Shown: piece by piece, positions 7,283 to 25,870 of the stretch | How the letters are laid out: each line of letters opens with the position of its first letter | Position numbering within the stretch: position 1 is the stretch's first letter | Assembly (NCBI GenBank): GCA_021820245.1 | Contig: JAKADT010000004.1 | Coordinates: forward strand, 1-38,746 | Direction of reading: 5' to 3' | DNA: 38,746 nt | Source: Thermoplasmata archaeon | GTDB lineage: Archaea > Thermoplasmatota > Thermoplasmata > Thermoplasmatales > Thermoplasmataceae | The notes under the pieces: model-generated | Database searches by the model: none | The model's input: the letters and a program-made list of their open reading frames with translations, nothing else | Told to the model about the DNA's origin: nothing | Program-made: the position numbers and the translations under genes

Positions 7283-8281
7283 ATGGATACCCTGGAACCT
7301 CTTTTTGCAAAAAAATTTGACGTTGCAAACAGACTGGGAAATGGAATGATAATCTCTTTCTGTTCCTGGACTGCAGATCTTGATCTGATAAAGGAGGAGA
7401 GCATCAGGAGCATTGACAATATAGGCAGGGAGCTTGGATTCACATATGAAATAATAGTCACGGGCGGAATCAGGCACATTACGGGTAATGAAGAAAAACA
7501 CAAAATGATGAGAAAGTTTCCTGAACTCAGTGAAATCATTCTGGATGATCACCGAAGTGGACATGGTAAAAATGTTGCTTTCGAGAACAGTGCCGGAAAG
7601 TACATAATCATGTTCGATGTGGACACTGTTTACAATCTTAACCTTGCTGACATGATCCATAATTTCATTCTTTCAGGAATTAAGAAGATGGTATTTTCCT
7701 CACTGGTGATAATACCAAGAATGATTATAAATGAGGTTGGAAGGTGGAGGGAACTCATCGATGGTGAGGATATTGACTTTTACACCCGTGTTGCCCTGTC
7801 ATATGGGATACTGGCTTTTCCATTCGATGGTAACTGCAAGGGTAAGGGAACATTTTCACTCCCTTCACCGGAATTCAACGGGAAAGACATGAACGGATTG
7901 AGAAATAAAATATTCCACATGAGAGACTACATAATCGGTTGCAACTATTCCCTGGGCGATATAAGATCATTCATAGGGACCGGGGACAAAAAAAACATGG
8001 TAGATAACGGTATTCTGTATGGAGTGGCTTATTTCCTCTCCAGAATATCAGGTACAAAACCCATGAGATACGATCGCAACAACTACCTCGTTGTCCTCGA
8101 ATCTATCCTGGAATCTCTAGTTTTAAGAGAATATACGAGAATCGACATGGCTGACCTGCCAATACGATTTAAAATGTCGGATGTCCAGATTTCCTACCTG
8201 ACGAAAAAAAGTAAACTTTATAGCAGCATAAAGGACTCCATTGTTCTTTACAATTCCATCCCTCCCATTGAAGAGGCATGA
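7283..8281 (+). CDS. GT-A-fold glycosyltransferase-like protein (family 2 type)
   Basis: A 332-aa protein. The first 130 residues look like a GT-A nucleotide-sugar-binding half: 'MIISFCSW' strand, a helix, 'EIIVTGG', then 'SGHGKNVAFENSAGKYIIMFDVDT', where 'DVD' matches the DxD metal/nucleotide-sugar motif. It has no membrane segments, so it probably acts in the cytoplasm. The C-terminal 150 residues are not recognised. It opens the surface-glycan island, and transfer of a sugar to a lipid-linked glycan or glycoprotein is an inference. A TATA-like run ('TCATAAAATTTA') lies about 30 bp before the ATG. Confidence 0.72.
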   Translation: MDTLEPLFAKKFDVANRLGNGMIISFCSWTADLDLIKEESIRSIDNIGRELGFTYEIIVTGGIRHITGNEEKHKMMRKFPELSEIILDDHRSGHGKNVAFENSAGKYIIMFDVDTVYNLNLADMIHNFILSGIKKMVFSSLVIIPRMIINEVGRWRELIDGEDIDFYTRVALSYGILAFPFDGNCKGKGTFSLPSPEFNGKDMNGLRNKIFHMRDYIIGCNYSLGDIRSFIGTGDKKNMVDNGILYGVAYFLSRISGTKPMRYDRNNYLVVLESILESLVLREYTRIDMADLPIRFKMSDVQISYLTKKSKLYSSIKDSIVLYNSIPPIEEA

Positions 8282-8592: not shown

Positions 8593-11502
8593 ATGAACAG
8601 AAGGGTATATGCAGTGATATTTGTTATCATTCTCTTATTATTGCCATTTCAAATAATGCATCCAGATAATCGGAATCCCAACGTCAATATTTCAGGCAAT
8701 AATGTTATTCGACCATATAATTCGGATACATTCAGAGTAATTGGCCAGAACGGAACCACTGACATCTACAGAATACAGCAGAACCTAACTGTAAGCAGTG
8801 GTTCCACACTTGAATTCCTCAACACACATGTTGAATTCCTCCCTGGATCAGGTGAGAATTATTCAATAACTGTTTTCGGACGCCTGGTTCTAATGAACTC
8901 CAGTATAAGCCTTGACGATCCAGGAAGTTCAGAAATCTTTCTCTTCATTAATGGAGGTGAAGCCGCTAACAGAACAGGACTGGAAATGGTGAATTCAACT
9001 CTTGACTTCAATGGTGTTATAGATACCAGCAACACCACCCTGAGAATCTATAATTCCACAACCAGAACTCCCTTCTCTGATCCAAGCCTGTCAAACGAGG
9101 ATCTCAGATACAGCTTTTCAAACACAACACTGTACACACTTAACTCAAATTTGTCCGGCATGGAAACACACGGACAGGATGGTGAATACCTGTCTGGAGG
9201 ACTGAACTGGAACAATGAACCAGTGGAAAACAGCAGCAGGATTGTTTTTCCATCTGAGTGGGTGCTGAAACCGGATGCGCTTACAAATATCATTTCTGTG
9301 ACAATTGGTTACGGTATAGGAAATACAACATCAGGTTCGAACCTGACTTTTAGTCTGTTCGGCAAACCCATATACACGTACTACTACCCGGCACATAACG
9401 GAACTGAGGATTCAGTGGTGAAGCATTTTAACATATCCATAATGAATGATCCTCAAATTCCAGACACCTTCAATTCGTCCTACAACTTCTCTGTATATCA
9501 GCATCTTGTAATCAATCAGGTATTTCTGGACAGTATAAACATTACTTTCCTTTCCAATGATACAGTCTCCTTGCTCGGCAGGAATAATTTCGGCATATAT
9601 CTGAGGAACAGCACATGGATCTCGTACAATGACAGCTTCAGCCTTAATATGGTCCCCTATTACAGCTATGCGAACGTTCCAAATCCCGAAAAAAACGCAA
9701 TTTTTCTTGAGGATAATTCCATCCTGTATGCAGTTGGTATGAAGATAAGCCCGGATATTCCAGGTGCCTTCACACCGGTCTACACAACGGGAAACTCACG
9801 GGTCTTCTATTTTTCCATATTTTCTGTCAAACAGAAAAACCAGTTCGGGGAATTGCTGAATGCAGGCAATAACATAACTTCCACTTCACTGAATCCGGAT
9901 ATGCAGAATATCACATGTTTATGGAACGGGAGAATTTCATCAATGATCCGCCAGTTAGATGGAAGTGAAAACATATATGGCCAGAATATGGAATTGAAAC
10001 GGTTTATTCTTCTGGATTCCTTTCAGAATGAGAGCAATAAAGTTGAATTCACGGGTAATTATGAAGACAGAACTTTAGGTTCTGTTTACTATTTTTCACT
10101 TCAACCGATGGAACACTTCAATTTCACAGGTCAGCTCAATATGGTTTACACAGATCCATATCCAGTTCTGAATATAACCGCCGGGGATATGATTGTGGGT
10201 TCTGCTAACCAGGTTAACATATCAATAGGTTCACAACAGGGGTCATCAAATCTCACAGTCATAAAGGTGATGTTATCAAACAATTCTAATTCACCCATTA
10301 CTGTGGCAGTTGAACCTATGGTTGTGAATCAGGGAACTGTATTCATGCAGACAGTTAATATTTCACCCAGTAGTCACATGTATACTGGAGTGTACAGATT
10401 AACCCTGTACGTGGTTGAAAATCAGGGATTCGCAAATAACTCCATATGGGAATTCCACAGGGACATCCTGATATACTCGACAGCCGGATTATCAACAGGG
10501 TTGAATTATACTGAGGAACCAAACAAAACACTCAGGGCAAACGTTACTGTTCATGGTATTTCACCCTGCATGGAGGGCGATTCTATGATCTCTTTCATTC
10601 TGGAAAACAATGGCGTGATCCTTGAAGAGAGAAACATTTCCGTGATATATTCAGGCGTATCCACAGAGTCATTTCATTACACGCTGACAGATTACAGAAA
10701 TGCCACAGAAATGATGTCTTTCGTTTATGTACCCTTTCCGGGTACAGGCAAGGAGAGCAGATCCCTGCAGTCCTATGCTTTTATCAGACAGCCTCCTCCC
10801 GAAATTATTCCAGACTACAGAGTGATACTGCATGGCATTGGCATCACAGGGGGTGAGATGTGGCATATTTACAATGGTACTTCCACATATGCAAGCGTCA
10901 ATGGAAATATTTCACTTGATATTCCAAACGGTACCTACTTTTTCTCCATCAAGAACCCATCCGGTTTCATCAGCAATGAAAGCAGCATTGCATTTACCGT
11001 GAATGGAACAGGTATCAGTCTCGGAGTTAGGTTCACAAGGATAGAATACCGGCTGGAAATCATTGAAGTTGGTCTCAATGCCAACACATCATGGAGGGTC
11101 CAGATGAATAATATCACAATGGAAACCAGCAGAAATTTTATCCGGTTAGAAATTTATCCGGGAAATTACACACTGGTATTCACTTCAGTTGGACTTTATT
11201 CCCCTGAAAGACCCCTTATAATGATCAACATATCGGCTTCACCAGTGGTTGTAGTTGAGAATTTTTCATATACTGGAGGCTTTACAGGGATCGTGGAAGA
11301 GCATCCGGCATATACCCTTGCCACCATGGGGATATCTGTCCTTGCATTATTGTATTATATGGATATCAGGAAGAGATCATATTTCCCGTGTCTCAGCTGT
11401 GGAACAACATGGCCCAGGAAGAGAAAAATATGTCCGGGATGTGGAAGAAAAATGAATGGAAAAAACCAGGAAATGGGAGAATCCATAAATAAGAAACAGT
11501 GA
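8593..11502 (+). CDS. Large N-glycosylated surface protein with C-terminal membrane anchor and cytoplasmic zinc ribbon
   Basis: A 969-aa protein. The N-terminus is a signal peptide or anchor (hydrophobic run 'VIFVIILLLLPF'). An early region (about 55-150) has repeated short strands of the 'NLTVSSGSTLEFLN' kind, suggesting a parallel beta-helix. The rest is beta-rich with dozens of N-x-S/T sequons, consistent with extensive N-glycosylation. Near the C-terminus lies one membrane segment ('YTLATMGISVLALLYYM'). After it comes a short basic tail holding a zinc ribbon with Cys933, 936, 947 and 950 ('CLSCG', 'CPGCG'). That layout puts the large domain outside and the zinc ribbon inside the cell, an unusual pairing that suggests tethering or signalling. 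The gene is followed after 3 bases by gmhB, so the two may be co-transcribed. Function unknown. Confidence 0.85.
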   Translation: MNRRVYAVIFVIILLLLPFQIMHPDNRNPNVNISGNNVIRPYNSDTFRVIGQNGTTDIYRIQQNLTVSSGSTLEFLNTHVEFLPGSGENYSITVFGRLVLMNSSISLDDPGSSEIFLFINGGEAANRTGLEMVNSTLDFNGVIDTSNTTLRIYNSTTRTPFSDPSLSNEDLRYSFSNTTLYTLNSNLSGMETHGQDGEYLSGGLNWNNEPVENSSRIVFPSEWVLKPDALTNIISVTIGYGIGNTTSGSNLTFSLFGKPIYTYYYPAHNGTEDSVVKHFNISIMNDPQIPDTFNSSYNFSVYQHLVINQVFLDSINITFLSNDTVSLLGRNNFGIYLRNSTWISYNDSFSLNMVPYYSYANVPNPEKNAIFLEDNSILYAVGMKISPDIPGAFTPVYTTGNSRVFYFSIFSVKQKNQFGELLNAGNNITSTSLNPDMQNITCLWNGRISSMIRQLDGSENIYGQNMELKRFILLDSFQNESNKVEFTGNYEDRTLGSVYYFSLQPMEHFNFTGQLNMVYTDPYPVLNITAGDMIVGSANQVNISIGSQQGSSNLTVIKVMLSNNSNSPITVAVEPMVVNQGTVFMQTVNISPSSHMYTGVYRLTLYVVENQGFANNSIWEFHRDILIYSTAGLSTGLNYTEEPNKTLRANVTVHGISPCMEGDSMISFILENNGVILEERNISVIYSGVSTESFHYTLTDYRNATEMMSFVYVPFPGTGKESRSLQSYAFIRQPPPEIIPDYRVILHGIGITGGEMWHIYNGTSTYASVNGNISLDIPNGTYFFSIKNPSGFISNESSIAFTVNGTGISLGVRFTRIEYRLEIIEVGLNANTSWRVQMNNITMETSRNFIRLEIYPGNYTLVFTSVGLYSPERPLIMINISASPVVVVENFSYTGGFTGIVEEHPAYTLATMGISVLALLYYMDIRKRSYFPCLSCGTTWPRKRKICPGCGRKMNGKNQEMGESINKKQ

Positions 11503-11505
11503 TTC

Positions 11506-11970
11506 ATGGTTGTATTGAAAAAGGCGCTTTTTATTGATCGGGATGGAACCATAATAAAGGATATTCCTTATTCCGCTGACGCTGGAAGGATAGAAATATA
11601 CCATGACGCCGTAGACCTCATGAAACGGTATTCTGGAGAAGGTTACCTTATCGTCATCATTACAAATCAGTCTGGCATAAACAGGGGATATTTTACGGTA
11701 CAGGAGTTGAAAATTTTCAATGATGTGCTCATTCATTATCTTCAGAATATGGGAGTGCACATTGATGCCGTATACTTCTGCCCTCATACTCCAGAAGAAA
11801 ATTGCAGGTGCAGAAAGCCTGAAACAGGAATGGTGACTGCCGCAGCCACTGATCTCAATATAGACATAAAAAATTCAGTAATGGCAGGTGACAGGGAAGA
11901 TATGGACGGTGGGCTTGCTGAGAGACTCGGTATGAGATTCATACTCATGAAGCACGAACAGAGCGAGTGA
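11506..11970 (+). CDS. gmhB: D-glycero-D-manno-heptose 1,7-bisphosphate phosphatase-like HAD enzyme
   Basis: A 154-aa HAD-superfamily phosphatase of the HisB-N/GmhB group, slightly shorter than the usual 175-190. Motif I is 'FIDRDGT' with Asp11 as nucleophile and Asp13 as acid. Motif II is in 'ITNQSGINRGYF'. The GmhB zinc loop is 'CPHTPEENCRCRKP', with three cysteines and one histidine. Motif IV is 'AGDREDMD'. The family removes the C7 or C1 phosphate of heptose bisphosphate. With gmhA (19549) and hddA (22713) in the same island, the GDP-heptose route is the best reading. It begins 3 bases after the stop of the 969-aa surface-protein gene. A related histidinol-phosphatase role cannot be excluded by sequence alone. 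Confidence 0.86.
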   Translation: MVVLKKALFIDRDGTIIKDIPYSADAGRIEIYHDAVDLMKRYSGEGYLIVIITNQSGINRGYFTVQELKIFNDVLIHYLQNMGVHIDAVYFCPHTPEENCRCRKPETGMVTAAATDLNIDIKNSVMAGDREDMDGGLAERLGMRFILMKHEQSE

Positions 11971-12025
11971 CTATTCAGTCGCTGATATCTTCTGTTGGCC
12001 TTTCATCAGAGGATGGAATAAAATT

Positions 12026-12577
12026 TCAGATTGTATACATGTGCATGTAATGTTCCGTGAGATCCTCACCCTTAACAAAAGAAAATCCATGCTTCTTCAT
12101 GATGCTTTTCAACTCATCCTGTCCTATCTTGATTTCCGCTGGTGGGCCAATGGTGGATTCCTTCTTGAATTCAATGAATATGATCTGGGTCTTATCTATG
12201 AATGTGCTTACCATGTTATTCAGTATCTTATCCCTGCATTTAAGGTCGTGAAAAACGTTGGAGAAAAGAATCTTTGTATATCTACTGTAGTCGGAAACCG
12301 TACAGACATCAGTCTGTAAAACAACCAGATTCTTAATGGCATTTGCTTCCAGAGTGTTCTTAATTTCGCTGACAGATTCCTCATTGAGATCCATGGCTGT
12401 AACAGATCCACGAGTTACCTCCTTCGCAAAGGAAAGTGCATAAAATCCATCTCCTGCGCCGATATCCAGCAGACTATCTCTGGGATTAAGTCCTATGAAT
12501 CTGTCTACATTTTCAAAAGGGATATATTTTTCTCTCATTTCCCGGGTTCGGGTGTAATCATGATTTTTCCATTCCAT
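12026..12577 (-). CDS. Class I SAM-dependent methyltransferase
   Basis: A 183-aa protein. The SAM-binding motif I is 'LLDIGAGDGFYAL' (about 36-48). The acidic residue ending the second strand is in 'VTAMDLNEES', and a later 'DVCTV' and 'ILFSNVFHDL' match motifs II-IV. Such small single-domain enzymes methylate diverse small molecules, and the substrate is not identifiable. It is convergent with gmhB. Methylation of a glycan sugar is possible from context only. Confidence 0.85.
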   Translation of the reverse strand: MEWKNHDYTRTREMREKYIPFENVDRFIGLNPRDSLLDIGAGDGFYALSFAKEVTRGSVTAMDLNEESVSEIKNTLEANAIKNLVVLQTDVCTVSDYSRYTKILFSNVFHDLKCRDKILNNMVSTFIDKTQIIFIEFKKESTIGPPAEIKIGQDELKSIMKKHGFSFVKGEDLTEHYMHMYTI

Positions 12578-12687
12578 TCAAATCATGTCTTCATACCGAA
12601 TTCATATATTAGCTGTTTGAAATAAGTCTCAAATCTTCTGGGTAAAATCATGAGATTTGCCTCGGGACAGAAAAATTATATCCATGC

Positions 12688-14640
12688 TCACGAGAATACC
12701 GTCTTCTCGCCCATGATATTACCAAAAAAGGCTATAATCCGAAATTCCTGACCATCCCTTAGAAACTGTGTTGAATTATATGGAACAATAAAGAAAGTTT
12801 CAGTCTGGTGGATATCTATTGTCTGGGAACTGTTCACGTCATACCACAGCATATTATTGATATTGCTCATGGGGCCAGAAGGAATTATCCTGAAAAGAAC
12901 AGGTACACTTGTATCTCCATTTCCATTGTATGTGAGATTTACAATCATTTCATCCACAATGCTGGAATTCTTGCCTGTAAAACTTTCAACATGAACTGAA
13001 TTTATGCTGAAATGGCTATCACCATGGGAAACTTCGAGAAATGCCGCGGTGGGAATTATGATAAGAACTACTGATGCCAGGGCAATATTCCTGAACGTTC
13101 TGGTTCTCGACAGGCTGGCAACTTTCTTCCCCATGGGTTTAACAAGTCCAGATAATCCATCAACGCTCTCCCTTTCCCTCATTATACTGGGAATAACGAG
13201 AAGGGATATCAGGGGCCAGAACATGATATACTGAACAAGGAGCCTGTAGTTGAAGAGGAATATTATAACCGGAATCACAAAGAGACAATATTTCAGCCGG
13301 TTGAAGTATATCCAGTAGGCAATAACTGAAAATAGGGAAATATATACCATCATCAGGAAGAAAAATGACCTGGATATTGAAAAGTACCCTGCAAAAGACA
13401 GTTGGGAAATACCGGATCCAACACCTATGATCAGTGAAGTCTCAGGCGAGATAATGGAGGTAAAGAATGCAACTGGATTTAGATATATAAAATATGCATT
13501 GATAAGCATGAAAGATGCAGCAAATGCCAAAAACCACTTACTTAAACTTCGGGTACCATGAGTCCTCATCATGTATATGGCGAAAAAGGGCAGGACAATA
13601 AGAGGGAACTGTTTGAAGGATGCGGAAATACCGATAAATGTTCCAGAAACCAGCGGTTTTTGCTCCATTATGAATGATGCCATTAACATTGAAACCCAGA
13701 ATATGCTATTTCCCACGGTAAGACCTTCATAAAAGAACTGCATTGTGGAAAATATGGATAGAGCAACGAACGGTATATAGTTGGAGTAACCTTTTTTCAT
13801 GAAATTATAGGAAAGAAGAAGAAATGGCAGTATGAAAAGTGGGACCTGTATGAAACCCTCCTTTATGTGGAAAAGCACCGCGGGAATGTATGATATAAAT
13901 GAAAGGGCGGGGTAACCGAGTGACTGCACAAATCCACCCGTTGAAATGGGGGTTGTCCTGTCCACCGTGAAACCAAGCACTGGAAGGATCCCATACAATG
14001 TCCCCTTTATGTAAGGATCAATTCCCTTAAGAAATAACTGGGCGGAATAGTAGTCAAAAACAGATTCATCGGTCGGGAACTGTGCGACGCTCATCATCAT
14101 TATAATGAGGATTACCAGGGATGCGGCTATGGTGCCGATTACGAACGATCTGAGGTGTATCCGTTCTGCATACCCCATGAACTGGCTTACTATGACGGCC
14201 AGTGATACAGCGTTGCATGCAATTATAATCACCAGATACATCATAGATGACCATGGAACCAGCAGGAATGAAACAATCTCGGCAGTGATGGAGAACACGT
14301 AAATTGCTAGCCCATGTGAAAAGTCTGGAACATACCATCCGGACAGGGCAAACAGTATTAGAATGAATGCAAAAAGGGAAATAATGAATTCAGCAAAGAT
14401 TGCAAACAGTTGTGTATATCCGAAACTCATGTTAAGGTAAAAAGGGGCCACGGTAAGGGAAGATCCCGCAGCAAGCATGAAGAGTCTTCCGGAAGAAAAA
14501 GAATCCACTCTGACAAAATGACGCTCTTGCCTGTTTACGAAACGTGAAGTGATGAGATTCTTCAATATAAATCCTGAATGAAGTTTGACACATAAAACTT
14601 TCCGAGATATTGCTCCCCGATGGTCAGAAGCATATTTCAA
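12688..14640 (-). CDS. Polytopic membrane protein, GT-C-like glycosyltransferase candidate
   Basis: A 650-aa protein with a dozen or so hydrophobic segments between about 50 and 520, then an extracellular beta-type tail with N-x-S/T sites. An early loop has 'YYSAQLFLKGIDPYIKG', resembling the 'YY-A-L-G-PY' loop of GT87/DUF2029-type mannosyltransferases, which use lipid-linked sugars on the outer face. No firm catalytic assignment is possible. The ORF track starts at a TTG, and the first 40 residues are basic and not membrane-like, so the true start may be internal. The next gene is divergent, with an 86-bp promoter region between. It is likely part of the glycan assembly island. Confidence 0.68.
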   Translation of the reverse strand: MKYASDHRGAISRKVLCVKLHSGFILKNLITSRFVNRQERHFVRVDSFSSGRLFMLAAGSSLTVAPFYLNMSFGYTQLFAIFAEFIISLFAFILILFALSGWYVPDFSHGLAIYVFSITAEIVSFLLVPWSSMMYLVIIIACNAVSLAVIVSQFMGYAERIHLRSFVIGTIAASLVILIIMMMSVAQFPTDESVFDYYSAQLFLKGIDPYIKGTLYGILPVLGFTVDRTTPISTGGFVQSLGYPALSFISYIPAVLFHIKEGFIQVPLFILPFLLLSYNFMKKGYSNYIPFVALSIFSTMQFFYEGLTVGNSIFWVSMLMASFIMEQKPLVSGTFIGISASFKQFPLIVLPFFAIYMMRTHGTRSLSKWFLAFAASFMLINAYFIYLNPVAFFTSIISPETSLIIGVGSGISQLSFAGYFSISRSFFFLMMVYISLFSVIAYWIYFNRLKYCLFVIPVIIFLFNYRLLVQYIMFWPLISLLVIPSIMRERESVDGLSGLVKPMGKKVASLSRTRTFRNIALASVVLIIIPTAAFLEVSHGDSHFSINSVHVESFTGKNSSIVDEMIVNLTYNGNGDTSVPVLFRIIPSGPMSNINNMLWYDVNSSQTIDIHQTETFFIVPYNSTQFLRDGQEFRIIAFFGNIMGEKTVFS

Positions 14641-14726
14641 AGAGCATTATTCGATAAATCTGTAAGAAAAATGATCATAATTGGTTTTAGTGAAAAATTT
14701 ATATTGATACAGCATATGGTTATAAA

Positions 14727-15338
14727 ATGCCAATTTATAACAGCGATGAGCATGAAATTATGAAAAGCGACGCCACACTTGTCGATCATTCCATCAAGGT
14801 TTCAGATGGAACGCTTTATCTCAGCAATAGCAGAGTCATATACGAAAGAAAAGGAAAAAAGAAGCTTTTCAGGGCCATACCACCACATATAGATATGGAG
14901 TTAAAGCTCACCGAACTGAAAGATGCTGCCGGTTCCGAACCAAAGCTGAAATTCTGGGCCAGGAGGATTCTTACAGTTACCTATGAAAGAGATAACTCAA
15001 CACAGAGTGCCGATTTTGTTGTTGAGGAGCCTGATGCTTGGGCCAGGTCTATACAGCAGTGGGCATCAGAGGCCAAACGCCGTTCATCTGAAAAATCTGA
15101 GAGGGAAAAGGAGGACGAGAAAAAAAGGGAGATAGAGATGGCCAGGGCTAAAACTCCCGGAGCAAACATCAATATTCTCTACAATGAAGAATCAGGGAAG
15201 AAAAAGAAGAGCGAACCAAAATACGTGGACGCTGAGACTGATGATAATCTCCCTGCATCCATCAAGAACTGTCCCTCATGTGGTGAACAGGTCCCTTCAA
15301 ATGCAAAGTTCTGTCCCAACTGCGGTCATCAGTTCTGA
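14727..15338 (+). CDS. PH/GRAM-like domain protein with charged helix and C-terminal zinc ribbon
   Basis: A 203-aa cytoplasmic protein. Residues 10-105 have a beta-strand pattern ('GTLYLSNSRVIYERKGKKKLFRAIP') resembling bacterial PH or GRAM-type domains. Residues 110-145 are a highly charged helix, probably coiled coil. The last 25 residues are a clear zinc ribbon ('CPSCGEQVPSNAKFCPNCG'). This architecture is common in archaeal proteins of unknown role. A TATA-like 'AAATTTATATTGAT' centred 27 bp before the ATG predicts a leaderless mRNA. The thioredoxin gene follows 54 bp downstream and may share the transcript. The zinc ribbon resembles that of the 969-aa surface protein. Confidence 0.78.
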   Translation: MPIYNSDEHEIMKSDATLVDHSIKVSDGTLYLSNSRVIYERKGKKKLFRAIPPHIDMELKLTELKDAAGSEPKLKFWARRILTVTYERDNSTQSADFVVEEPDAWARSIQQWASEAKRRSSEKSEREKEDEKKREIEMARAKTPGANINILYNEESGKKKKSEPKYVDAETDDNLPASIKNCPSCGEQVPSNAKFCPNCGHQF

Positions 15339-15392
15339 CCTTTCCATCCATTTCTTTGAACTGAAAGAACATGTTCAGCTGTTCATAGGCGG

Positions 15393-15797
15393 ATGAGTAG
15401 GTTGTCACCAGATGCCAGGGATTCAAAGAAAGATACATCTGAAAATATGGATGAGAACCATAATTCTCCAGCATGGCGGATTATTGATCTGACAGATGCG
15501 GATTTTGCAAAGGCAATAATGTCGAATGAGAAGATCGTGGTTGAGTTCTGGAAGGAACTCTGTGTACCATGTGCTGTAATGAAAACCATATTTGAAAATG
15601 TTACAGAACAATACAGGGGCAGTGTAAAGAGTGCAAGGGCCAGAGTCGACAGTGCGCAGACGGTCCTCAAGTTATTCAATGTGTTCAATGTACCCACGTT
15701 CCTCTTTTTTTACAAAGGAAAGGTGGTTGACACACTCATCGGGATAGTTTCTGAAGAAAATCTCAATAACACATTAAAGAAACTTTCCGCCATGTGA
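15393..15797 (+). CDS. Thioredoxin-like protein
   Basis: A 134-aa cytoplasmic thioredoxin fold: 'IVVEFWKELCVPCAVMK' contains the active site CVPC (the classical site is W-C-G-P-C). The cis-proline motif is 'NVPTFLFF' and the C-terminal strand is 'GKVVDTLIGIV'. It lacks the tryptophan directly before the first cysteine (Leu instead), so its redox potential may differ from ordinary thioredoxin. The first 20-25 residues are polar and not part of the fold; an internal ATG at 15447 is an alternative start. It probably acts as a disulfide reductase for cytoplasmic partners. It lies between the PH-like/zinc-ribbon gene and a flippase. Confidence 0.88.
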   Translation: MSRLSPDARDSKKDTSENMDENHNSPAWRIIDLTDADFAKAIMSNEKIVVEFWKELCVPCAVMKTIFENVTEQYRGSVKSARARVDSAQTVLKLFNVFNVPTFLFFYKGKVVDTLIGIVSEENLNNTLKKLSAM

Positions 15798-15869
15798 CTG
15801 TACTCATGGTGAATAAATATGTACCTGAAGGAATAAGATTATTTAGGCTATGACGATCTGCCTCCTGAA

Positions 15870-17393
15870 TTGTTTGCCAGAAGATCCCCTGTATTGATGA
15901 TCCAGAATGTTATTGGTGCAGTACTTGGGTTAGTGGGACTTTTTTTCATAACCCGTTTCGTGGGGACAACTGAGTGGGGATTTGTCTCATTCGGTATCGG
16001 TTTTGTAGGAATTCTATCCCTTCTGGGTGATCTGGGGTATTCAACAGCGCACAACATAAAACTCTCACAGGGTGAGGATATTGAGGTATGTAACGGGACT
16101 TTTCTCACCATTAAACTCTTTCTCGGTTTCCTGTTCATTGCCATTGTACTGGGTTCCCTCATTATCTGGACACATGTGTTGCACAGGGGTTTTCAGTCCC
16201 CCATTGAGTTCTGGATCATTCTCTCCCTCATTCCATACTTCTTCTTTTCAAATTTTATAGGTTTCACAAAAACATTCTTTATCGCCAACCTGAAATCAAC
16301 CAGAATAGCAATCCCACCTGTTATAGAGGCTATATTGAGGAACTCTGTCTTCATAGTACTTGGTCTCACCATAAGATACAGCATCCTTTCCAATACCGGC
16401 TATTTTCCGGCTGTACTTGTCTCATCTGCTTACAGCTTTTCATACGCTGTCTATTTCCTCAGCTCATTCATCATGGGAAGACCTTGGAAAATAGCCAGGC
16501 CCACAAGGAAGATGATGAAGACTTATACTGCACTTGCCCTACCACTGGCTTTGGTTTCAGTAGTGGGTACAGTTAATGGCAATATAGATAAGGTAATCAT
16601 AGAGTTCTACTGGCATGCCACTGCAACAGGTGCATTCTACTCTTCCCAGAATATAGCACTTGTAGTTTCATCACTGAGTGCATCCCTGTCCATCTTCTTC
16701 CTTCCAATGCTTGTAAGAATAACCCAGGAACATCAGAAAGAGGAACACGCCCGGACAATCAAGGAATTTGAGAGACTCATATCGCTCTTCATTCTGCCTC
16801 TTGTTGTGGACATGGCCATACTTGCACAGTATGTTATGAATATATTCAACCAGGCTTACATAGCGTACAGCGCAATACTTGCTGTGCTTTCCATAAGGGC
16901 ATATTTTTCAGCAATAAACACACCCTACTCTTCTGCAATCATGTCCAGGCAGAAAACTGGGAGGATTGCTATCATAGATTTCCTGTCTGTTCTGGGAAAC
17001 ATAACTCTTATTCTTCTTCTGGTCCCACCATCAATATTCGGCTTGACATACTTCTCACTGGGTGCACTTGGAGCGGCTGTCGCCACAACCATAATCACCA
17101 TAATAGATACGGTGCTTTACCGTATATCAGTATCAAAACTTGAGAAGACAGGATACAATTTCAGGGTTGTACGGCACATCATCCCTGCCCTCATCCAGGC
17201 TGCGTTCATAATGTTTGTAGTCCATTTTATAAATCCAAAGGATATAATCATACTGGGACCCCTTGGAATTGCGGCAATCGGGGTGTATTTCCTTATGGCA
17301 ATTGCAATCAGGGAAACTTCGTTCGCTGACCTCATTACGCTGGTGAGGAGTTTCAGTCCGAGAACACTTTTCAGGCAGTTTAAAAACGAATGA
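15870..17393 (+). CDS. Wzx-type oligosaccharide flippase (MATE/MVF superfamily)
   Basis: A 507-aa polytopic protein with about 12-14 hydrophobic segments and the usual flippase opening ('MIQNVIGAVLGLVGLFFITRFVG'). The family moves lipid-linked oligosaccharides across the membrane for surface glycan or S-layer glycoprotein assembly. The start is uncertain. The ORF track begins at a TTG, but the codons just upstream ('GYDDLPPE') also read like protein and have no ATG, GTG or TTG before an in-frame stop at 15834. An internal ATG at 15897 is another option. It is convergent, by 7 bases, with the DUF2079-like gene. Confidence 0.86.
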   Translation: MFARRSPVLMIQNVIGAVLGLVGLFFITRFVGTTEWGFVSFGIGFVGILSLLGDLGYSTAHNIKLSQGEDIEVCNGTFLTIKLFLGFLFIAIVLGSLIIWTHVLHRGFQSPIEFWIILSLIPYFFFSNFIGFTKTFFIANLKSTRIAIPPVIEAILRNSVFIVLGLTIRYSILSNTGYFPAVLVSSAYSFSYAVYFLSSFIMGRPWKIARPTRKMMKTYTALALPLALVSVVGTVNGNIDKVIIEFYWHATATGAFYSSQNIALVVSSLSASLSIFFLPMLVRITQEHQKEEHARTIKEFERLISLFILPLVVDMAILAQYVMNIFNQAYIAYSAILAVLSIRAYFSAINTPYSSAIMSRQKTGRIAIIDFLSVLGNITLILLLVPPSIFGLTYFSLGALGAAVATTIITIIDTVLYRISVSKLEKTGYNFRVVRHIIPALIQAAFIMFVVHFINPKDIIILGPLGIAAIGVYFLMAIAIRETSFADLITLVRSFSPRTLFRQFKNE

Positions 17394-17399
17394 ATCAAA

Positions 17400-19166
17400 C
17401 TAACCCGGTTTTTCCTGCAACAGTTTCATAACCACATTGCTATGGCTGTTTCCGCCGTAGGAAATGAAGAACTGCAGATTCATCATATAAAATGCTGGAT
17501 TGAGGATTATGGAAGCATTTCCATTTGTGGAAACAGGCAAGGGCACAGTTCCCATTTTCACTGTTCCATTAAAGTTGTCATATGAGTATGAGACATTCAC
17601 ATTGGTTACATTTTCATTTATGCCTGAAAATTCCACCAGATATTCTCCTGGTGCAATGAAGGGTGCATTGAAACCAATGGTTGTGTTACTGTCTGCGGCG
17701 CCAATTATTCCCGATTTGTAATAGCTTGGCCCAGCACTGTATTCAAGGGGTATGAACTGCCTGACATTTCCTCTGTAACCATTTTCCAGGAGGATCTCGC
17801 CATAGTCTTCAGCCACTATTCCATATTTATCCGGGATAAATATCCTGTTTATCTCGTTGAGCATGGTATGGTTGGTGTTAAGCGTAAAGTATGTGTTATA
17901 AAATGCCGGGCTGTAAGGGTCTGTTATGGCGAACTGTGGGTTATTCAGTTCTTTTATAAAATCGGGAAGGACCCAGTGATAACCGGACGTCAACTGAGGC
18001 ATGTTGTCCTGTATGACTATGGAGGAGTATAGTGGAACAAAGGATGCCATTTTCAATACACCCGAATCATATTGATGATATGTGATTTCATCAATTGTTT
18101 CGTAATTTCCTCTGTTTCCTGTAAGTGCATATTCAAGGTGCTGGTTGTCAAGGTTGTTTGTTACTGAATTGCCAAGGGGCGTGAACATCATGGCAAGAAG
18201 GATGTTGAAAATCAGGACAGCCGCCGCCAAACGTTTCACCGTTATGCCATGTTTTCCCATTTTTTTTCCAAACCTCTCTATACCGAATATGAAGGCCAGG
18301 AATATCTGCGCAGAGACAAGGGCAGTGTACTGGTAAAACATTGTGTCGACAAATGGGAAATAGGAATTTGCGAAGACAAGAGCTGCAAATGGTATTATGA
18401 GGAAAAGGAGATCAGGGGCCAGTATACATATAAAAAGCACCGGAAGCATAATCCATAAAAAATACGTGGCTTCATAGGTCCTGGAAGTATGTGTGAAGGC
18501 AAAAGTGGATGAGAATACTGAATTGTTTGCAAATGAAACGGCATATTGAGGCCCAATGTATAAATTGGCAGCTATAAATATCAAGGCTGAGGACAGAATA
18601 ATGAGAAAGCCTGTTCCTCTTATGTCTATACGTTTTGTAAAAGGTCTATCATGGATCAGTGCATACAGTCCAAACATTCCAATTATGACTGGAGCGAGTA
18701 GGTCAGTTACTGATGCAATCAGGGCAAATGCAACCGTTTTCTTTTTTTCTCCCTTAAGGTAGAAATAGAAAGAAAACAGGAAAGGGGTAGGGAAGAGTGC
18801 CATGAAGTGAAAATCAAACCACAGTGGACCGTAAAGTGGATAAAATAGCAGGTATGTCATCCCGATCATGAACGCAGAACCTCTGTCTTTGAGCTTCAGG
18901 TTGGCGATAAGATAAACAGGATAAGCTCCCAGGGATACCACGAACGCCTGGATTACAAGGACAGTCTGTGGATGTGGATATATAAGGTAGATTACGGAAA
19001 GTGGAAGATAGATAAGCTTGTTGAATGTGATATGTGTAAGGCTGTACCGGACACTCTCATGAAATACATAGTAAAGAAGCTGGGAACTCACTCCGAGATC
19101 GTAAACTCCAGCGTTCATCGCCATGTATTTCATTATGGCTATGTAGGAGTACACCACTCCATTCAA
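17400..19166 (-). CDS. DUF2079-like polytopic membrane protein (GT-C-like)
   Basis: A 588-aa protein with around ten hydrophobic segments followed by an extracellular tail with sequons. The signature of DUF2079 is visible: 'VYDLGVSSQ', a histidine-rich first loop, 'YPHPQTVLVIQAF', 'LGAYPVYLIA', and 'FDFHFMAL'. The family is placed with GT-C glycosyltransferases, but its reaction is not established. The ORF track starts at a TTG in the middle of a membrane helix: upstream in-frame codons read 'DRFGIIILIATI' and continue for about 35 codons without ATG, GTG or TTG until a stop at 19272-19274. The true start is therefore probably upstream with an unusual codon, or the gene has lost it. Confidence 0.75.
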   Translation of the reverse strand: MNGVVYSYIAIMKYMAMNAGVYDLGVSSQLLYYVFHESVRYSLTHITFNKLIYLPLSVIYLIYPHPQTVLVIQAFVVSLGAYPVYLIANLKLKDRGSAFMIGMTYLLFYPLYGPLWFDFHFMALFPTPFLFSFYFYLKGEKKKTVAFALIASVTDLLAPVIIGMFGLYALIHDRPFTKRIDIRGTGFLIILSSALIFIAANLYIGPQYAVSFANNSVFSSTFAFTHTSRTYEATYFLWIMLPVLFICILAPDLLFLIIPFAALVFANSYFPFVDTMFYQYTALVSAQIFLAFIFGIERFGKKMGKHGITVKRLAAAVLIFNILLAMMFTPLGNSVTNNLDNQHLEYALTGNRGNYETIDEITYHQYDSGVLKMASFVPLYSSIVIQDNMPQLTSGYHWVLPDFIKELNNPQFAITDPYSPAFYNTYFTLNTNHTMLNEINRIFIPDKYGIVAEDYGEILLENGYRGNVRQFIPLEYSAGPSYYKSGIIGAADSNTTIGFNAPFIAPGEYLVEFSGINENVTNVNVSYSYDNFNGTVKMGTVPLPVSTNGNASIILNPAFYMMNLQFFISYGGNSHSNVVMKLLQEKPG

Positions 19167-19284
19167 AATTGTAGCAATTAAGATTATTATTCCAAACCTG
19201 TCAATGCTTTTCTTCGTGCACCCATATACAAACCATACTTTAAGAATTGTTCCGGTGTGGTCACTGATCTCTCAAACAGAGTCA

Positions 19285-19295
19285 ATGTTATATGG
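19285..19295 (+). promoter_or_regulatory. TATA-like box of the 58-aa zinc-ribbon gene
   Basis: 'TGTTATATGG' is centred about 26 bp before the ATG at 19316, predicting a leaderless transcript and supporting that small gene. Confidence 0.4.
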
Positions 19296-19315
19296 GAGTA
19301 TTTTCATGACATGAT

Positions 19316-19492
19316 ATGCACAGGGTCTGCCCACAATGCAAATCAGACAATGTAATAGGCGACTTCCTCATGATCTCCGGTTCATGGACGTGTCTTGACT
19401 GTGATTACAGAGGATCTTTTGTACTGGAGATGGACGATCCAGATTATGCAGAATTCCTTAGGGAGGAAGAAGAACACAATAGGGGAGTCTGA
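19316..19492 (+). CDS. Small zinc-ribbon protein (58 aa), absent from the ORF track
   Basis: The frame encodes 58 residues with two zinc knuckles spaced as in archaeal zinc ribbons: 'CPQC' at 5-8 and 'CLDC' at 26-29, followed by 'YRGSFVLE' and an acidic tail. The cysteine placement, a TATA-like box 26 bp upstream and the position just before gmhA support a real gene. Small proteins of this form often bind nucleic acid or act as subunits of larger assemblies, but no function is assigned. It ends 56 bp before the gmhA start. Confidence 0.68.
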   Translation: MHRVCPQCKSDNVIGDFLMISGSWTCLDCDYRGSFVLEMDDPDYAEFLREEEEHNRGV

Positions 19493-19548
19493 TCAGATCC
19501 AGAGTCTCATCGCAACATGAAAATATTATTAGGATGCTTTATCATAAT

Positions 19549-20118
19549 ATGGACATGGATAAATTTGAAATTGAAAACTATCTCGAGGCCGGATCAAGGA
19601 CACGCTCCTCAATGGATATTGAAATTATATACAGGGTTGGAAACGAGATCGCGGAAAGGATAAAAAATGGCGGAAAACTCATACTGATGGGAAATGGTGG
19701 AAGTGCTGCAGATGCCCAGCACATTGCTGCTGAACTGCTGGGCAGGTATTTCAAGGAAAGACGTTCCCTTCCAGCAATAGCACTCACCACCAACACTTCC
19801 GCACTGACCGCAATTGCCAATGATTACTCATACGATTATGTCTTCGAAAGGCAGGTTGAGGCGTTTGCAAAGGCAGAAGATGCAGTCATAGGAATATCCA
19901 CCAGCGGAAGCTCCAGGAACGTTGTGAGGGGACTTTCAAAGGCAAAAGAACTTGGTGCACTTACAATAGGTTTCACCGGGTCCAGAAAAGGGGAGATTGA
20001 CAGGATAGCAGATTACACAATTAAGGTCCCAAGCGAAACCACACCCATAATCCAGGAGGTTCATATTGCAATAGGTCACATAATATCCCAGATAGTTGAG
20101 GACGTTATTGCTGCCTGA
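19549..20118 (+). CDS. gmhA: Sedoheptulose 7-phosphate isomerase (SIS domain)
   Basis: GmhA converts sedoheptulose 7-phosphate to D-glycero-D-manno-heptose 7-phosphate, the first step of nucleotide-heptose synthesis. The SIS-domain motifs are clear: 'LMGNGGSAADAQHIAAEL', 'GRYFKERRSLPAIALT', 'GISTSGSSRNVV' and the C-terminal 'IIQEVHIAIGHIIS'. Length (189 aa) matches the family. The ORF track starts at 19534, but a TATA-like 'AATATTATT' is centred near 19526, putting the predicted RNA start near 19551. The ATG at 19549 or 19555 is therefore more likely. It is one of three heptose genes in the window, with gmhB at 11506 and hddA at 22713. Confidence 0.92.
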   Translation: MDMDKFEIENYLEAGSRTRSSMDIEIIYRVGNEIAERIKNGGKLILMGNGGSAADAQHIAAELLGRYFKERRSLPAIALTTNTSALTAIANDYSYDYVFERQVEAFAKAEDAVIGISTSGSSRNVVRGLSKAKELGALTIGFTGSRKGEIDRIADYTIKVPSETTPIIQEVHIAIGHIISQIVEDVIAA

Positions 20119-20166
20119 ATTTTCATTCCCAGGCAAGCACACTCCATTTTTGCGAAAAGAAATGGA

Positions 20167-21681
20167 TCAGTTGAACATGAATCTGAACCTGTTGTAAACT
20201 TTTGGAAAGAATCTTGAAAGAATCTCCCTGTGCTCCCCATTGAGCGCATGTGTGATCTTAATTAGAAACAGGTATGTTCCGATTCCTGCAAGTATGTAAA
20301 ATGGCAGGAACAGCATCCGGTCTCCGCTTAATATTGCAAGATAATGCACCAGCACTGCCATTACGATTGCCGACCCCCAGATCTTGAAAAGGGTATAAAA
20401 ATTCAGGCTGAATATGTGGCTCTTGATGGATGCGTAGAGGATAATGACGAAGGAAACAACCATTATCGACGAGTATCCTATGGACGCACCAATTATTGAG
20501 AATCTCGGTATCAGGATATAAGAGAGAACAACATTTGACAGAAGCGAAAGCGTGGATGAATAAATGAATATCCTGGTCACTCTCACACTGAAAAGACCCT
20601 GGTTGAGAACATTGACCGATACCAGAACAGCTGATACAGTCAGTATGATATCCATGGGGATGGCACTGGTAAGATAGCTATTATCCGCAATCAGGTTTAT
20701 AATTGGAGTGGATAAAGCTATGATTCCAAGGGTTGCTGGTACGTAAAGCAGAGATACAATATCATTGGTAATCCTCACGCTTCCCCTGACTGAATTGCTT
20801 CCGCTTTCCGCATAGAACTGTGAGAACTTTGAAAGAGTGATGTTGTTTATAGGTCCTATAAATATTCCAACCGATGAGACAACCAGAAGTGCAAGGTTGT
20901 AAATTCCAAGGCTTCCCAGGTTGAGGAAAAATGCAACAACAAAACGATCCACATAGGATGCGCTGATGCTAATTATGGATGAGAAGAAAAGGGGAGCTGA
21001 ATACCTGAAAATATCACCTGTTTTAACGTTGATGGATTGCTCCTTCCCCTTGAAAACAAGAATTCTGTAAAGCATTGCAGATATCCCTATTGAATATCCG
21101 ATCATCCACCCGGCAGGGACATAGATGAGGGATCGGAACATGAAAGTCAGAACTGCTGCTGATCCATATGCAAGGGTATAGCTGACTATTGTTATCTTCC
21201 CGTAGGTCTGGTACTTCTGCAGGCCGAGAAGCATTCCTCCAAGTATGTTGAAAAGGACCATTATTCCTATATCCGGGGAAAGCAGCTCAATTATTCTTGT
21301 ATACGATGGTGAATGGAAGAATATCTGGGATAGCTCAGGGGATATGCCGGCAACAGCAAGCGTCGCAATAAAGAATAGACCTATTCCGACCTTAAGGAAC
21401 TTGCTTATTATGGATGCTGCACCCTGTGTACTCTTTCTACCAAGTTCGTATGATATGTAGTGCTGCATTCCGTACTGCACACCCAGTGAGAATATGGTGG
21501 GGAATATGACAAGTATTGCAACAAGCAGGGTCAGTGATCCAACCTGTAGAGGCGAGAAGATCCTCATTGCATAGATGTAGAAGAGGGAACCGGCAATGGT
21601 GAGGGAACCGGAACTTGCGTATTGCAGGAGAACGCTTTTGGAAAAATCCTTATTTGTGGTTCCCTCTGTCATTTCTCTCAA
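20167..21681 (-). CDS. Second Wzx-type polysaccharide flippase
   Basis: A 504-aa polytopic membrane protein with about 12-14 hydrophobic segments. The start region ('VLLQYASSGSLTIAGSLFYIYAMRIFSPLQVG') and the 'LGVQYGMQHYISYELGRK' loop fit the polysaccharide-transport branch of the MVF/MATE flippases. It is not a close copy of the flippase at 15870, so the two probably handle different lipid-linked glycans or divide stages. An alternative start is the internal ATG at 21672. It is convergent with gmhA and divergent from the epimerase. Confidence 0.88.
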   Translation of the reverse strand: MREMTEGTTNKDFSKSVLLQYASSGSLTIAGSLFYIYAMRIFSPLQVGSLTLLVAILVIFPTIFSLGVQYGMQHYISYELGRKSTQGAASIISKFLKVGIGLFFIATLAVAGISPELSQIFFHSPSYTRIIELLSPDIGIMVLFNILGGMLLGLQKYQTYGKITIVSYTLAYGSAAVLTFMFRSLIYVPAGWMIGYSIGISAMLYRILVFKGKEQSINVKTGDIFRYSAPLFFSSIISISASYVDRFVVAFFLNLGSLGIYNLALLVVSSVGIFIGPINNITLSKFSQFYAESGSNSVRGSVRITNDIVSLLYVPATLGIIALSTPIINLIADNSYLTSAIPMDIILTVSAVLVSVNVLNQGLFSVRVTRIFIYSSTLSLLSNVVLSYILIPRFSIIGASIGYSSIMVVSFVIILYASIKSHIFSLNFYTLFKIWGSAIVMAVLVHYLAILSGDRMLFLPFYILAGIGTYLFLIKITHALNGEHREILSRFFPKVYNRFRFMFN

Positions 21682-21789
21682 GATTGAACCGTTGTATATA
21701 ATTCTTCAGGGGTTGAAGCATGTGTGAAAATTCATCACACATCCAGAGGATTAATTTTATACTCAATATGCTATCAAGTGACGGTATTG

Positions 21790-22716
21790 ATGCAGAACAT
21801 AATTAAGAACAAAGAGATAATAGTCACAGGCGGCGCAGGATTCATAGGTACAAATCTTGTAAGGACGCTTGCGGTGGACAACGAGGTCACTGTTATTGAC
21901 AATTTGCACACCGGGTCCGAAGGCAACCTCAAGGACCTGATGGACAGTAAACAGATTAAGGTCATCAGGGATGATGTAAAAAACATTGGAAAATACAAAC
22001 TCCAGAGTGACATGGTATTCCATCTTGGATTTCCATCTGCATCACCCATGTACAGGAATGATCCACAGCTTGTATCGGAAGTTGTGAGCGGCATGATTTC
22101 CGTACTGGAATACTGCAAGGAGAACAGCGTTAACCTTGTCTATTCATCAACGTCATCCATCTACAACGGAGTGAAACCCCCACACAGGGAGGATATAGTT
22201 CCAGGTGTCACGGATTTCTATACTGAGGCAAGGATATACACTGAAAGACTCTCGAAACTTTACAATGATCTCTTTGGTGTCAATGTGGCCGCAATGAGAT
22301 TTTTCTCCATATATGGAAAATATGAGAAGGCAAAGGGTGGATATGCAAATCTTGTCACACAGTTTCTCTGGAACATAAGGGATAAACAGGAACCCGTCAT
22401 ATATGGTGATGGTGAACAGCGCAGAGATTTTATTTACGTGGAAGACCTGGTTGAGTCACTTCTTCTTGCATCAAGGATCAAAGGATGCGAAGTTTTCAAC
22501 GTTGGTTACGGTAAGAACTATTCACTTAACGAGATGCTTGCCATGCTTAATCGGCACCTGGGCACCAGTGTTAAGGCAAAATATATTGAAATGCCTGTTA
22601 AAAATTATGTCATGGAGACGCTTGCCGACACCACTAAATCTGAGAAAGTTCTGGGTTTCAGGGCAAAGACGACACTGGAAGAAGGCATCAGGATAATTTC
22701 AGAGTTTTACAGATGA
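21790..22716 (+). CDS. NAD-dependent sugar epimerase/dehydratase (extended SDR) with altered catalytic lysine
   Basis: The likely protein is 308 aa. The ORF track starts 22 codons earlier at 21724, but a TATA-like 'AATTTTATACT' is centred near 21757 and the fold begins right after the ATG at 21790. The Rossmann motif is 'VTGGAGFIG', the acidic strand end 'VIDNLHTG', the Ser/Thr motif 'YSSTSSIY' and the C-terminal 'DFIYVEDLVE'. The catalytic tyrosine motif reads Y-T-E-A-R, so the usual lysine of YxxxK is arginine. It probably modifies a nucleotide-activated sugar, perhaps the heptose product. Its stop overlaps the hddA start (ATGA), so the two are translationally coupled. Confidence 0.86.
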   Translation: MQNIIKNKEIIVTGGAGFIGTNLVRTLAVDNEVTVIDNLHTGSEGNLKDLMDSKQIKVIRDDVKNIGKYKLQSDMVFHLGFPSASPMYRNDPQLVSEVVSGMISVLEYCKENSVNLVYSSTSSIYNGVKPPHREDIVPGVTDFYTEARIYTERLSKLYNDLFGVNVAAMRFFSIYGKYEKAKGGYANLVTQFLWNIRDKQEPVIYGDGEQRRDFIYVEDLVESLLLASRIKGCEVFNVGYGKNYSLNEMLAMLNRHLGTSVKAKYIEMPVKNYVMETLADTTKSEKVLGFRAKTTLEEGIRIISEFYR

Positions 22717-23699
22717 AACAGAGAATGATCATGACCCGGACTCCACTGCGCATAACATTTGCAGGCGGAGGTACAGATCTGCCCGAGTATTATATCAGGC
22801 ATGGTCCAGGTTCAGTGGTGTCTGCTGCAATAGACAAATACATCTATGTTATTGTTAACAAGAAATTTGATCATAAGATAAGGATAAGCTATTCCCATAC
22901 AGAGATTGTTGACAGTGTGGATCAGATCAGACATCCATCTGTGAGGGAGGCGCTCAGGCTCCTCAACATTGACGGCGGGATAGAGGTGGTCTCAATCTCA
23001 GATATACCATCACAGGGAACCGGTCTGGGTTCCAGCAGCACATTTCTCGTTGGTCTGCTCAACGCTCTGCATGCCTATAAAGGTGAACTGGCATCGGCAG
23101 GTCAGCTGGCAAGGGAGGCAGTTAAGATAGAAAGGGAGATACTCGGAGAACCAGGAGGAAAGCAGGATCAATATGCTGCAGCTTATGGTGGCCTCAACAT
23201 GATAGTGTTCAACAGAGATGATAGCGTCGAGGTGAAACCTCTCATATCGAACGAGGAGACCAGAATGAAACTTGATTCAAATCTCCTTCTCCTGTATACT
23301 GGCAAGGAGAGAAGTTCAGCAACAATCCATAATAGCCAGAAGGCAACTGTTGACCAGATGATCAGCAATTATGACACCATGAGGGATCTTGCCCATAATC
23401 TGTACGCAAGACTTTCGGTCAATGACTACAATGCAGCGGGTCCAGTCATGCATAAAAACTGGATCTTAAAGAAAGAACTTGCTTCGGGGATATCATGGGA
23501 CTTCATCGACGAATGTTACGTTCAGGCTATTAAGCTGGGGGCCACAGGTGGAAAACTTATTGGTGCCGGGGGTGGTGGATTTCTCATGTTTTTTGCGGCA
23601 CCTGAACTACACGAGAGAATTGCTAGTGCCCTGCAACTCAGGAAGGTTGATTTCAATATACAGTACCAGGGGTCAAGTATCATATATGTCGGTGACTGA
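22713..23699 (+). CDS. hddA: D-glycero-D-manno-heptose 7-phosphate kinase (GHMP family)
   Basis: A 328-aa GHMP kinase. The opening 'RTPLRITFAGGGTDLPEYY' and the ATP loop 'GTGLGSSSTFLVGLLNAL' are typical of HddA-type kinases. These add the anomeric phosphate to heptose 7-phosphate before GmhB removes the other. The later 'EPGGKQDQYAAAYGG' and 'GGKLIGAGGGGF' motifs complete the GHMP set. The gene overlaps the epimerase stop by four bases. No nucleotidyltransferase (HddC type) is present in the window, so the last step must be encoded elsewhere or differ. A related sugar kinase specificity (for example fucose) is less likely given gmhA and gmhB nearby. Confidence 0.88.
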   Translation: MKQRMIMTRTPLRITFAGGGTDLPEYYIRHGPGSVVSAAIDKYIYVIVNKKFDHKIRISYSHTEIVDSVDQIRHPSVREALRLLNIDGGIEVVSISDIPSQGTGLGSSSTFLVGLLNALHAYKGELASAGQLAREAVKIEREILGEPGGKQDQYAAAYGGLNMIVFNRDDSVEVKPLISNEETRMKLDSNLLLLYTGKERSSATIHNSQKATVDQMISNYDTMRDLAHNLYARLSVNDYNAAGPVMHKNWILKKELASGISWDFIDECYVQAIKLGATGGKLIGAGGGGFLMFFAAPELHERIASALQLRKVDFNIQYQGSSIIYVGD

Positions 23700-24127: not shown

Positions 24128-24145
24128 GTTCAGTATATGACAATT

Positions 24146-24166
24146 TGCGCAGTTAAAAGATGCGCA
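24146..24166 (+). promoter_or_regulatory. Copy-1 leader hairpin
   Basis: TGCGCA, 9 nt, TGCGCA. The two arms can pair over six bases and each arm is itself a palindrome. It starts 45 nt before the ATG, at the predicted first base of the mRNA. Confidence 0.7.
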
Positions 24167-24180
24167 GGAAAACAAAAAAT

Positions 24181-24772: not shown

Positions 24773-24780
24773 AAACAATC

Positions 24781-25862: not shown

Positions 25863-25870
25863 TATATTAA
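25863..25870 (+). promoter_or_regulatory. Copy-2 TATA-like box
   Basis: TATATTAA centred 26.5 bp before the leader hairpin of copy 2. It differs from the promoter cores of the other four copies. Confidence 0.5.

Follow-up and report, generated by a model that had tools for sequence, protein, structure and literature searches.

Heptose is already known from N-glycans of the order Thermoplasmatales, as are heptose genes in this order. According to a 2025 cryo-EM paper that cites Vinogradov 2012, the N-glycan of Thermoplasma acidophilum contains D-glycero-D-galacto-heptose and 6-deoxy-6-C-sulfo-galactose (6-C-sulfofucose) (PMC12448462). In I-plasma, a cluster for ADP-L-glycero-D-manno-heptose was reported in 2013 and thought to serve S-layer glycosylation (PMC3750248), and a 2016 genome paper described capsular heptose metabolism in Cuniculiplasma divulgatum and 'F. 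acidarmanus', not in T. acidophilum or P. torridus (PMC5155288). Moreover, archaeal nucleotide diphosphate (NDP)-heptose biosynthetic enzymes, with M. maripaludis S2 named, are functional according to two papers referring to Tang et al. 2024 (PMC11461863, PMC11573728). Here, we analyze a 38,746-nucleotide contig (JAKADT010000004.1; the window) from an acidophilic Thermoplasmata archaeon that encodes the heptose enzymes GmhA, HddA and GmhB together with a short-chain dehydrogenase/reductase (SDR) coupled to HddA. What this analysis adds is an assignment of genes to the T. acidophilum glycan, the correction of a published absence, a coupled epimerase with an unusual motif, and evidence that the heptose genes, present in most of the order, form an old, order-wide trait.

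The window organism shares with T. acidophilum the order, the GTDB family and the enzymes GmhA, HddA, GmhB and SDR, and its genome encodes a UDP-sulfoquinovose synthase. For T. acidophilum, the literature gives a D-glycero-D-galacto-heptose rather than a manno-heptose. The I-plasma cluster likewise comes from this order and has been tied to S-layer glycosylation; however, an ADP-L,D route was named there, whereas the kinase in the window is of the HddA type and the sole notable protein resembling HldE domain II is RibL. The three enzyme families of the GDP-heptose (HddA/HddC) pathway recur in the window with their logical order preserved, and GmhB may sit outside the cluster in that pathway, as in C. 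jejuni (PMC10680097). The window differs in that no HddC is assigned with certainty, HddA is coupled to an SDR, family cut-offs are not reached and the host is an archaeon with AglB. The enzymes of Tang et al. demonstrate that working heptose enzymes are encoded in archaea, but they use HldE-type nucleotidyltransferases (NTases) with an STT motif, none of which was found in the window genome.

We consider it probable that the genes in the window produce a nucleotide-activated heptose for incorporation into the N-linked glycan of surface proteins. Sedoheptulose 7-phosphate would come from transketolase and transaldolase; an NTase encoded elsewhere in the genome would activate the heptose 1-phosphate; the SDR, translationally coupled to HddA, would then epimerize the NDP-heptose; and, after transfer of the heptose to a lipid-linked oligosaccharide and flipping, AglB would carry out the attachment to sequons. 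A sequence-only reading of the window had already suggested a heptose pathway that may serve surface glycans. This idea gains from the heptose reported in the T. acidophilum N-glycan, where the same enzymes are encoded, but it is less surprising than presented because heptose and heptose genes had been reported in the order.

Heptose genes in the window and across the order

The window corresponds to contig C76 of a 1.6-Mb genome (G000; 125 contigs, 80% complete) that belongs to the GTDB family of Thermoplasma. In profile searches, GmhA matched TIGR00441 (189 bits, E 5e-56); its top match in the Protein Data Bank (PDB) is the C. jejuni phosphoheptose isomerase (1tk9), and the active-site residues of the SIS fold (H63, E67, Q174 and H182) are kept in an alignment of 59 sequences. 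HddA matched NF049969 (153 bits, E 1e-44) and, in the PDB, the heptose kinase 3k85 followed by 4usm and 4n3o, and it carries the GHMP motifs GGGTD, GLGSSS, GGKQDQYAA and GAGGGG at 18, 104, 148 and 284. GmhB matched NF006506 (139 bits, E 1e-40) and E. coli GmhB (3l8e/2gmw) and contains the HAD-IIIA motifs and zinc loop (DRDGT, TNQSG, CPH...CRCRKP, GDRED), which are also found in HisB-N and hence are non-specific. Family models, PDB matches and intact active-site motifs thus agree with the sequence-only reading on these three genes. GmhA is below the TIGR00441 equivalog cut-off (189 versus 209 bits; T. acidophilum GmhA reaches 199), and HddA is well below that of NF049969 (153 versus 600 bits). 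Such scores argue that GmhA, HddA and GmhB are divergent rather than textbook members of their families, and the assignments rest on best match, conserved motifs and genomic context, from which we infer what each enzyme converts, what it forms and with which stereochemistry. We dropped the idea that HddA is a mevalonate 3-phosphate 5-kinase because that enzyme is not a GHMP kinase in this order (PMC11052028). A second GHMP kinase (G000:C111:16547-17434), with ∼28-35% identity to HddA, occurs in nearly all genomes of the family, even in those without GmhA.

HddA, GmhA, NTase, SDR and GmhB were searched for across the order in 117 genomes, of which 51 are good and underlie the counts given here. 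All five are present in 27, none in five, and only the NTase in seven. HddA and GmhA occur together in 35 genomes, one without the other in 2 + 1, and neither in 13; the corresponding counts are 32/5/0/14 for HddA/GmhB and 35/2/1/13 for HddA/SDR. Fisher p values for co-occurrence are about 1e-9 to 1e-8, uncorrected for shared ancestry. The genes also cluster: HddA-GmhA-GmhB-NTase are contiguous in G002 and G003, GmhB-GmhA-HddA-SDR in G072, and GmhB-GmhA-HddA in G048, G054, G055, G058 and G005, and in all eight of these genomes the GmhB orthologue lies beside GmhA/HddA. The pathway is missing from the Aciduliprofundum-like family f3. In genus g4, five genomes (G048, G054, G055, G058 and G059) have GmhA, HddA, GmhB and NTase and lack the SDR, while other species of the genus keep the NTase alone. 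T. acidophilum itself is represented by G097, as its proteasome alpha subunit is 100% identical to 1pma, and encodes GmhA (199 bits), HddA (174 bits), GmhB (139 bits) and SDR (146 bits with TIGR02197). The published absence of heptose metabolism (PMC5155288) is thereby contradicted for T. acidophilum and upheld for G094, probably Picrophilus, which has GmhA and the NTase and is without HddA, GmhB and SDR. Co-occurrence and clustering across the order, together with the heptose of the T. acidophilum N-glycan and the same enzymes in that species, argue that GmhA, HddA and GmhB serve one heptose pathway.

The sequence-only reading had described this pathway as bacterial-type. Membership of the three genes in one heptose pathway is supported; however, a special import from bacteria is not, as the gene set spans three families in this order, and GmhA sequences from archaea, including those from a few DPANN bins, form one clade (99/99) apart from the sampled bacterial sequences, a sample that was small and picked by similarity to the query. 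The order-wide distribution and the single archaeal clade speak for a long-standing presence of these genes in the order and against their recent import into this island; given this bacterial sample, an ancient transfer may still have taken place. GmhA in bins labelled Mancarchaeum, Nanoarchaeota or Micrarchaeota (L009, L010, L019, L021 and L027) nests among Thermoplasmata sequences, and in the DPANN-labelled bin of L010, the gene after GmhA encodes an SDR that carries YxxxR. These sequences reflect either symbiont-host transfer or mis-binned contigs.

Proposed activation and epimerization of the heptose

The activating NTase is indeed absent from the window, as the sequence-only reading had stated. 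Three complete PF00483 proteins and one fragment are encoded on other contigs of the genome, and the complete proteins score 109 (L001), 68 (L002) and 23 bits on the HddC model, for which the cut-off is 300; the genome search proposed earlier thus yields candidates but not a certain HddC. L001 (C115) looks like a mannose-1-phosphate guanylyltransferase, and the L003 NTase, a neighbor of the UDP-sulfoquinovose synthase, goes with sulfoquinovose. This leaves L002 (C112), which may be the heptose NTase, although we rate this as somewhat less likely than not: L002-like NTases adjoin HddA/GmhA in relatives from f2 and f5. We refrain from calling it HddC, and it stays a candidate, because the NTase tree tracks the families of the order, including f3 members without heptose genes. 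The L002 protein (44-982) has an extra C-terminal segment of ∼80 amino acids (residues 231-312), which is found in f1 NTases and missing from the cluster-linked f5 versions of 226-230 amino acids. We also rejected the idea that the T. acidophilum NTase and SDR/HddA form one glycan cluster; the intervening genes are for glycogen metabolism (GH57, GT4, debranching enzyme and GH15), and the closeness of the NTase to SDR/HddA is therefore weak evidence. HldE-type activation was rejected as well. An HldE domain II NTase was not found in the 80% complete window genome (best TIGR02199 match 72 versus 181.5 bits), and the one match worth noting is RibL-like, encoded within a riboflavin operon. GDP, the nucleotide given in the sequence-only reading, is suggested only by HddA, with no HddC identified with certainty.

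That reading was also incomplete, in that it overlooked the SDR overlapping HddA, which bears on which heptose is predicted, as well as a glycosyltransferase-like protein (7283-8281) and a methyltransferase (12026-12577). The end of the SDR gene overlaps the start of HddA by 4 bp (ATGA), and in ∼40 related genomes the SDR gene immediately precedes HddA in the same orientation, with a gap of at most ∼55 bp. The true start of the SDR gene in the window is probably the ATG at 21790 because residues 1-24 of the open reading frame beginning at 21724 are unconserved and disordered. The best model is TIGR02197 (heptose_epim, ADP-heptose 6-epimerase) with 148 bits, below the cut-off of 275, followed by GalE with 98 bits. 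Invariant in 42 aligned SDRs are STSS(I/M)Y, K204 and, at the site where SDRs typically carry YxxxK, YTE(A/G)R. Compared with E. coli HldD (RfaD; L151 3988-4920), the ADP-heptose 6-epimerase, the acid-base pair Tyr140/Lys178 is retained as Y166/K204, both invariant, whereas Lys144 is replaced by Arg and YxxxK is absent in 42 of 42 sequences. These HldD residues, like Cys145 and Lys217 of GDP-mannose 3,5-epimerase, have roles in catalysis. The SDR fold is predicted with a pLDDT of 89, and the top Foldseek matches are UDP-hexose(NAc) 4-epimerases, with 6dnt first and HldD (3sxp) at rank 22. Haloarchaeal relatives with 37-38% identity keep both YxxxK and the lysine at the HldD position, and no heptose genes are annotated near them in the two neighborhoods with annotation, so this lysine is not heptose-specific. 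The SDR might act at C6, C4 or elsewhere. Because of a shared K-G-G motif, we considered a GDP-mannose 3,5-epimerase-like reaction, which would lead from manno to galacto in one step; we dropped this chemistry, as Cys145 and Lys217 (Arabidopsis numbering; reference sequence verified against 2c59) are replaced by an invariant Ser (S145) and Asn (N209).

Probable destination of the heptose and alternative explanations

Genes for transaldolase and transketolase are adjacent on C5 of the window genome. AglB (STT3) is encoded on G000:C41 (55 bits, WWDYG present), and the UDP-sulfoquinovose synthase (L003 299-1456, G000:C53; 627 bits versus a cut-off of 575) lies beside an NTase and would be in keeping with a glycan that, like the one of T. 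acidophilum, contains a sulfosugar. Compared with shuffled expectation, N-X-S/T sequons are strongly in excess in the proteins at 8593 (47 versus 17±4), 120 (24 versus 8) and 24191 (10 versus 3.3) and not enriched at 27834 or 30037; hence, the earlier description of 8593 and 24191-30621 as sequon-rich holds for the proteins at 8593 and 24191 but not for the latter two. We infer the glycan as the destination of the heptose in the window organism. The AglB gene (G000:C41:2378-8719, L180) encodes 2113 amino acids, with an STT3 part followed by a sequon-rich region of ∼1,100 amino acids that ends in a transmembrane segment; thus, the enzyme that attaches the glycans resembles a surface glycoprotein.

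Several points weigh against this pathway, among them co-occurrence counts uncorrected for phylogeny. GmhA, HddA, GmhB and SDR all score below curated NCBIfam or equivalog cut-offs. HddC is not certain, and L001 outscores L002 on its model (109 versus 68 bits); L002-type NTases are retained by f3 genomes that lack the heptose pathway, and in T. acidophilum the NTase gene sits among glycogen genes. The heptose genes are dispersed over the T. acidophilum chromosome. The search for heptosyltransferases that the sequence-only reading had called for gave no match to PF01075 (LPS-type) in the window genome, at 80% completeness. Finally, the heptose reported for T. acidophilum is galacto-configured, for which neither the GmhA/HddA/GmhB route nor a 6-epimerase alone accounts; D-manno and D-galacto differ at both C2 and C4, and a single C4- or C6-epimerase is therefore insufficient alone. 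Either a further step exists, or the configuration, which is cited here second-hand, needs checking.

Three alternatives were considered. At least one of the three enzymes could work on other sugar phosphates: the HAD protein could be a histidinol-phosphatase, the GHMP kinase could act on another sugar, or the SIS protein could use a different ketose phosphate. For the first of these proteins, the score is 139.5 bits with the histidinol-phosphatase domain model, over the cut-off (84) and equal to its GmhB score, HddA also matches fucokinase and mevalonate kinase models, and all three proteins score under equivalog cut-offs; nevertheless, we find this improbable given that the three genes co-occur across the order and adjoin in several genomes, including G048, probably Cuniculiplasma. 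C. divulgatum is reported to be without complete histidine synthesis (PMC5155288), which counts against a histidinol-phosphatase. Slightly less improbable, but still unlikely, is a true heptose pathway whose heptose goes mainly to another product, such as an exopolysaccharide, a glycolipid or lipoglycan, or NDP-heptose as a free metabolite. The heptose genes are flanked by two Wzx-type flippases and several membrane proteins, no heptosyltransferase is identifiable, and the role of the functional archaeal NDP-heptose enzymes is called elusive (PMC11573728). This alternative is at odds with the heptose reported for the N-glycan of T. acidophilum (PMC12448462), a species with the same enzymes, and with the presence of AglB and highly sequon-rich proteins.

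The third alternative concerns only the SDR, which might be an ordinary hexose 4-epimerase of the GalE/WbpP type merely linked to HddA. Foldseek ranks such enzymes above HldD, the haloarchaeal relatives share the HldD-position lysine with no heptose gene annotated near the two annotated ones, and GmhA is missing from two f2 genomes that carry the SDR. Yet, TIGR02197 is clearly ahead of GalE in the window (148 versus 98 bits) and in T. acidophilum (146 versus 85 bits), the SDR is paired with HddA in ∼40 genomes and co-occurs with it across the order, and the positions of HldD Tyr140 and Lys178 are invariant in the subfamily. On balance, we consider an ordinary hexose 4-epimerase rather unlikely. 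With a confidence that is equally low, we speculate that the SDR, with its invariant YxxxR instead of YxxxK, represents a novel type of NDP-heptose epimerase, which would reshape the manno-heptose from GmhA/HddA/GmhB and help to yield the D-glycero-D-galacto-heptose of Thermoplasma N-glycans.

Neighboring genes and implications

Features of the window are listed below. The sequence-only reading had seen the heptose genes as scattered among flippases and GT-C-like proteins. Both flippases match Polysacc_synt, and a DUF2079 protein is also there; in contrast, the GT-C-like label is not supported for the protein at 12688-14640, which has no Pfam or NCBIfam match and a poorly predicted fold (pLDDT 54). 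The order of the 7283-like gene, the 8593-like surface protein gene and GmhB recurs in G083 (L148 16243-19884; GmhB at G083:C8:20375). Five tandem secreted proteins with a near-identical leader (MNRKIMILMVAVVATVLPAVAVADVM...) are encoded at 24137-30621, with a distant relative apparently at 3801-4436; the array is broken by an IS630 transposase gene (28575-29663, 226 bits).

Features of the window, with coordinates, strand and supporting matches
Feature	Coordinates	Strand	Basis or context
GT-A glycosyltransferase-like protein (by eye)	7283..8281	+	unmatched in Pfam and NCBIfam
Large sequon-rich surface protein, probable glycan acceptor	8593..11502	+	sequon excess
GmhB-like HAD phosphatase (heptose 1,7-bisphosphate 7-phosphatase)	11506..11970	+	NF006506, PDB 3l8e/2gmw
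Class I methyltransferase	12026..12577	-	PF13847, 39 bits
Multi-pass membrane protein, 650 amino acids	12688..14640	-	homologues near GmhA in L013, L016, L020, L141, L143
Wzx-type flippase 1	15870..17393	+	PF01943 (Polysacc_synt)
DUF2079 membrane protein, possible lipid-linked-sugar glycosyltransferase	17400..19166	-	PF09852, 81 bits; homologue adjoins GmhA in L016, L020, L143
GmhA, sedoheptulose 7-phosphate isomerase	19534..20118	+	TIGR00441, PDB 1tk9
Wzx-type flippase 2	20167..21681	-	PF01943, PF13440; homologue adjoins GmhA in L013
NDP-sugar epimerase (extended SDR), candidate NDP-heptose epimerase	21790..22716	+	TIGR02197 best model
HddA (heptose 7-phosphate kinase family)	22713..23699	+	NF049969, PDB 3k85

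Our findings connect a concrete set of genes with a sugar that is known from Thermoplasma N-glycans but had no genes assigned to it. We found no report in the literature of the biosynthesis of the D-glycero-D-galacto-heptose of these glycans; if the SDR were the proposed new epimerase, genes would be assigned to this sugar. The SDR is the sole shortlisted candidate for the step that decides which heptose results, and genus g4 represents a natural knock-out series both for the SDR and for the pathway.

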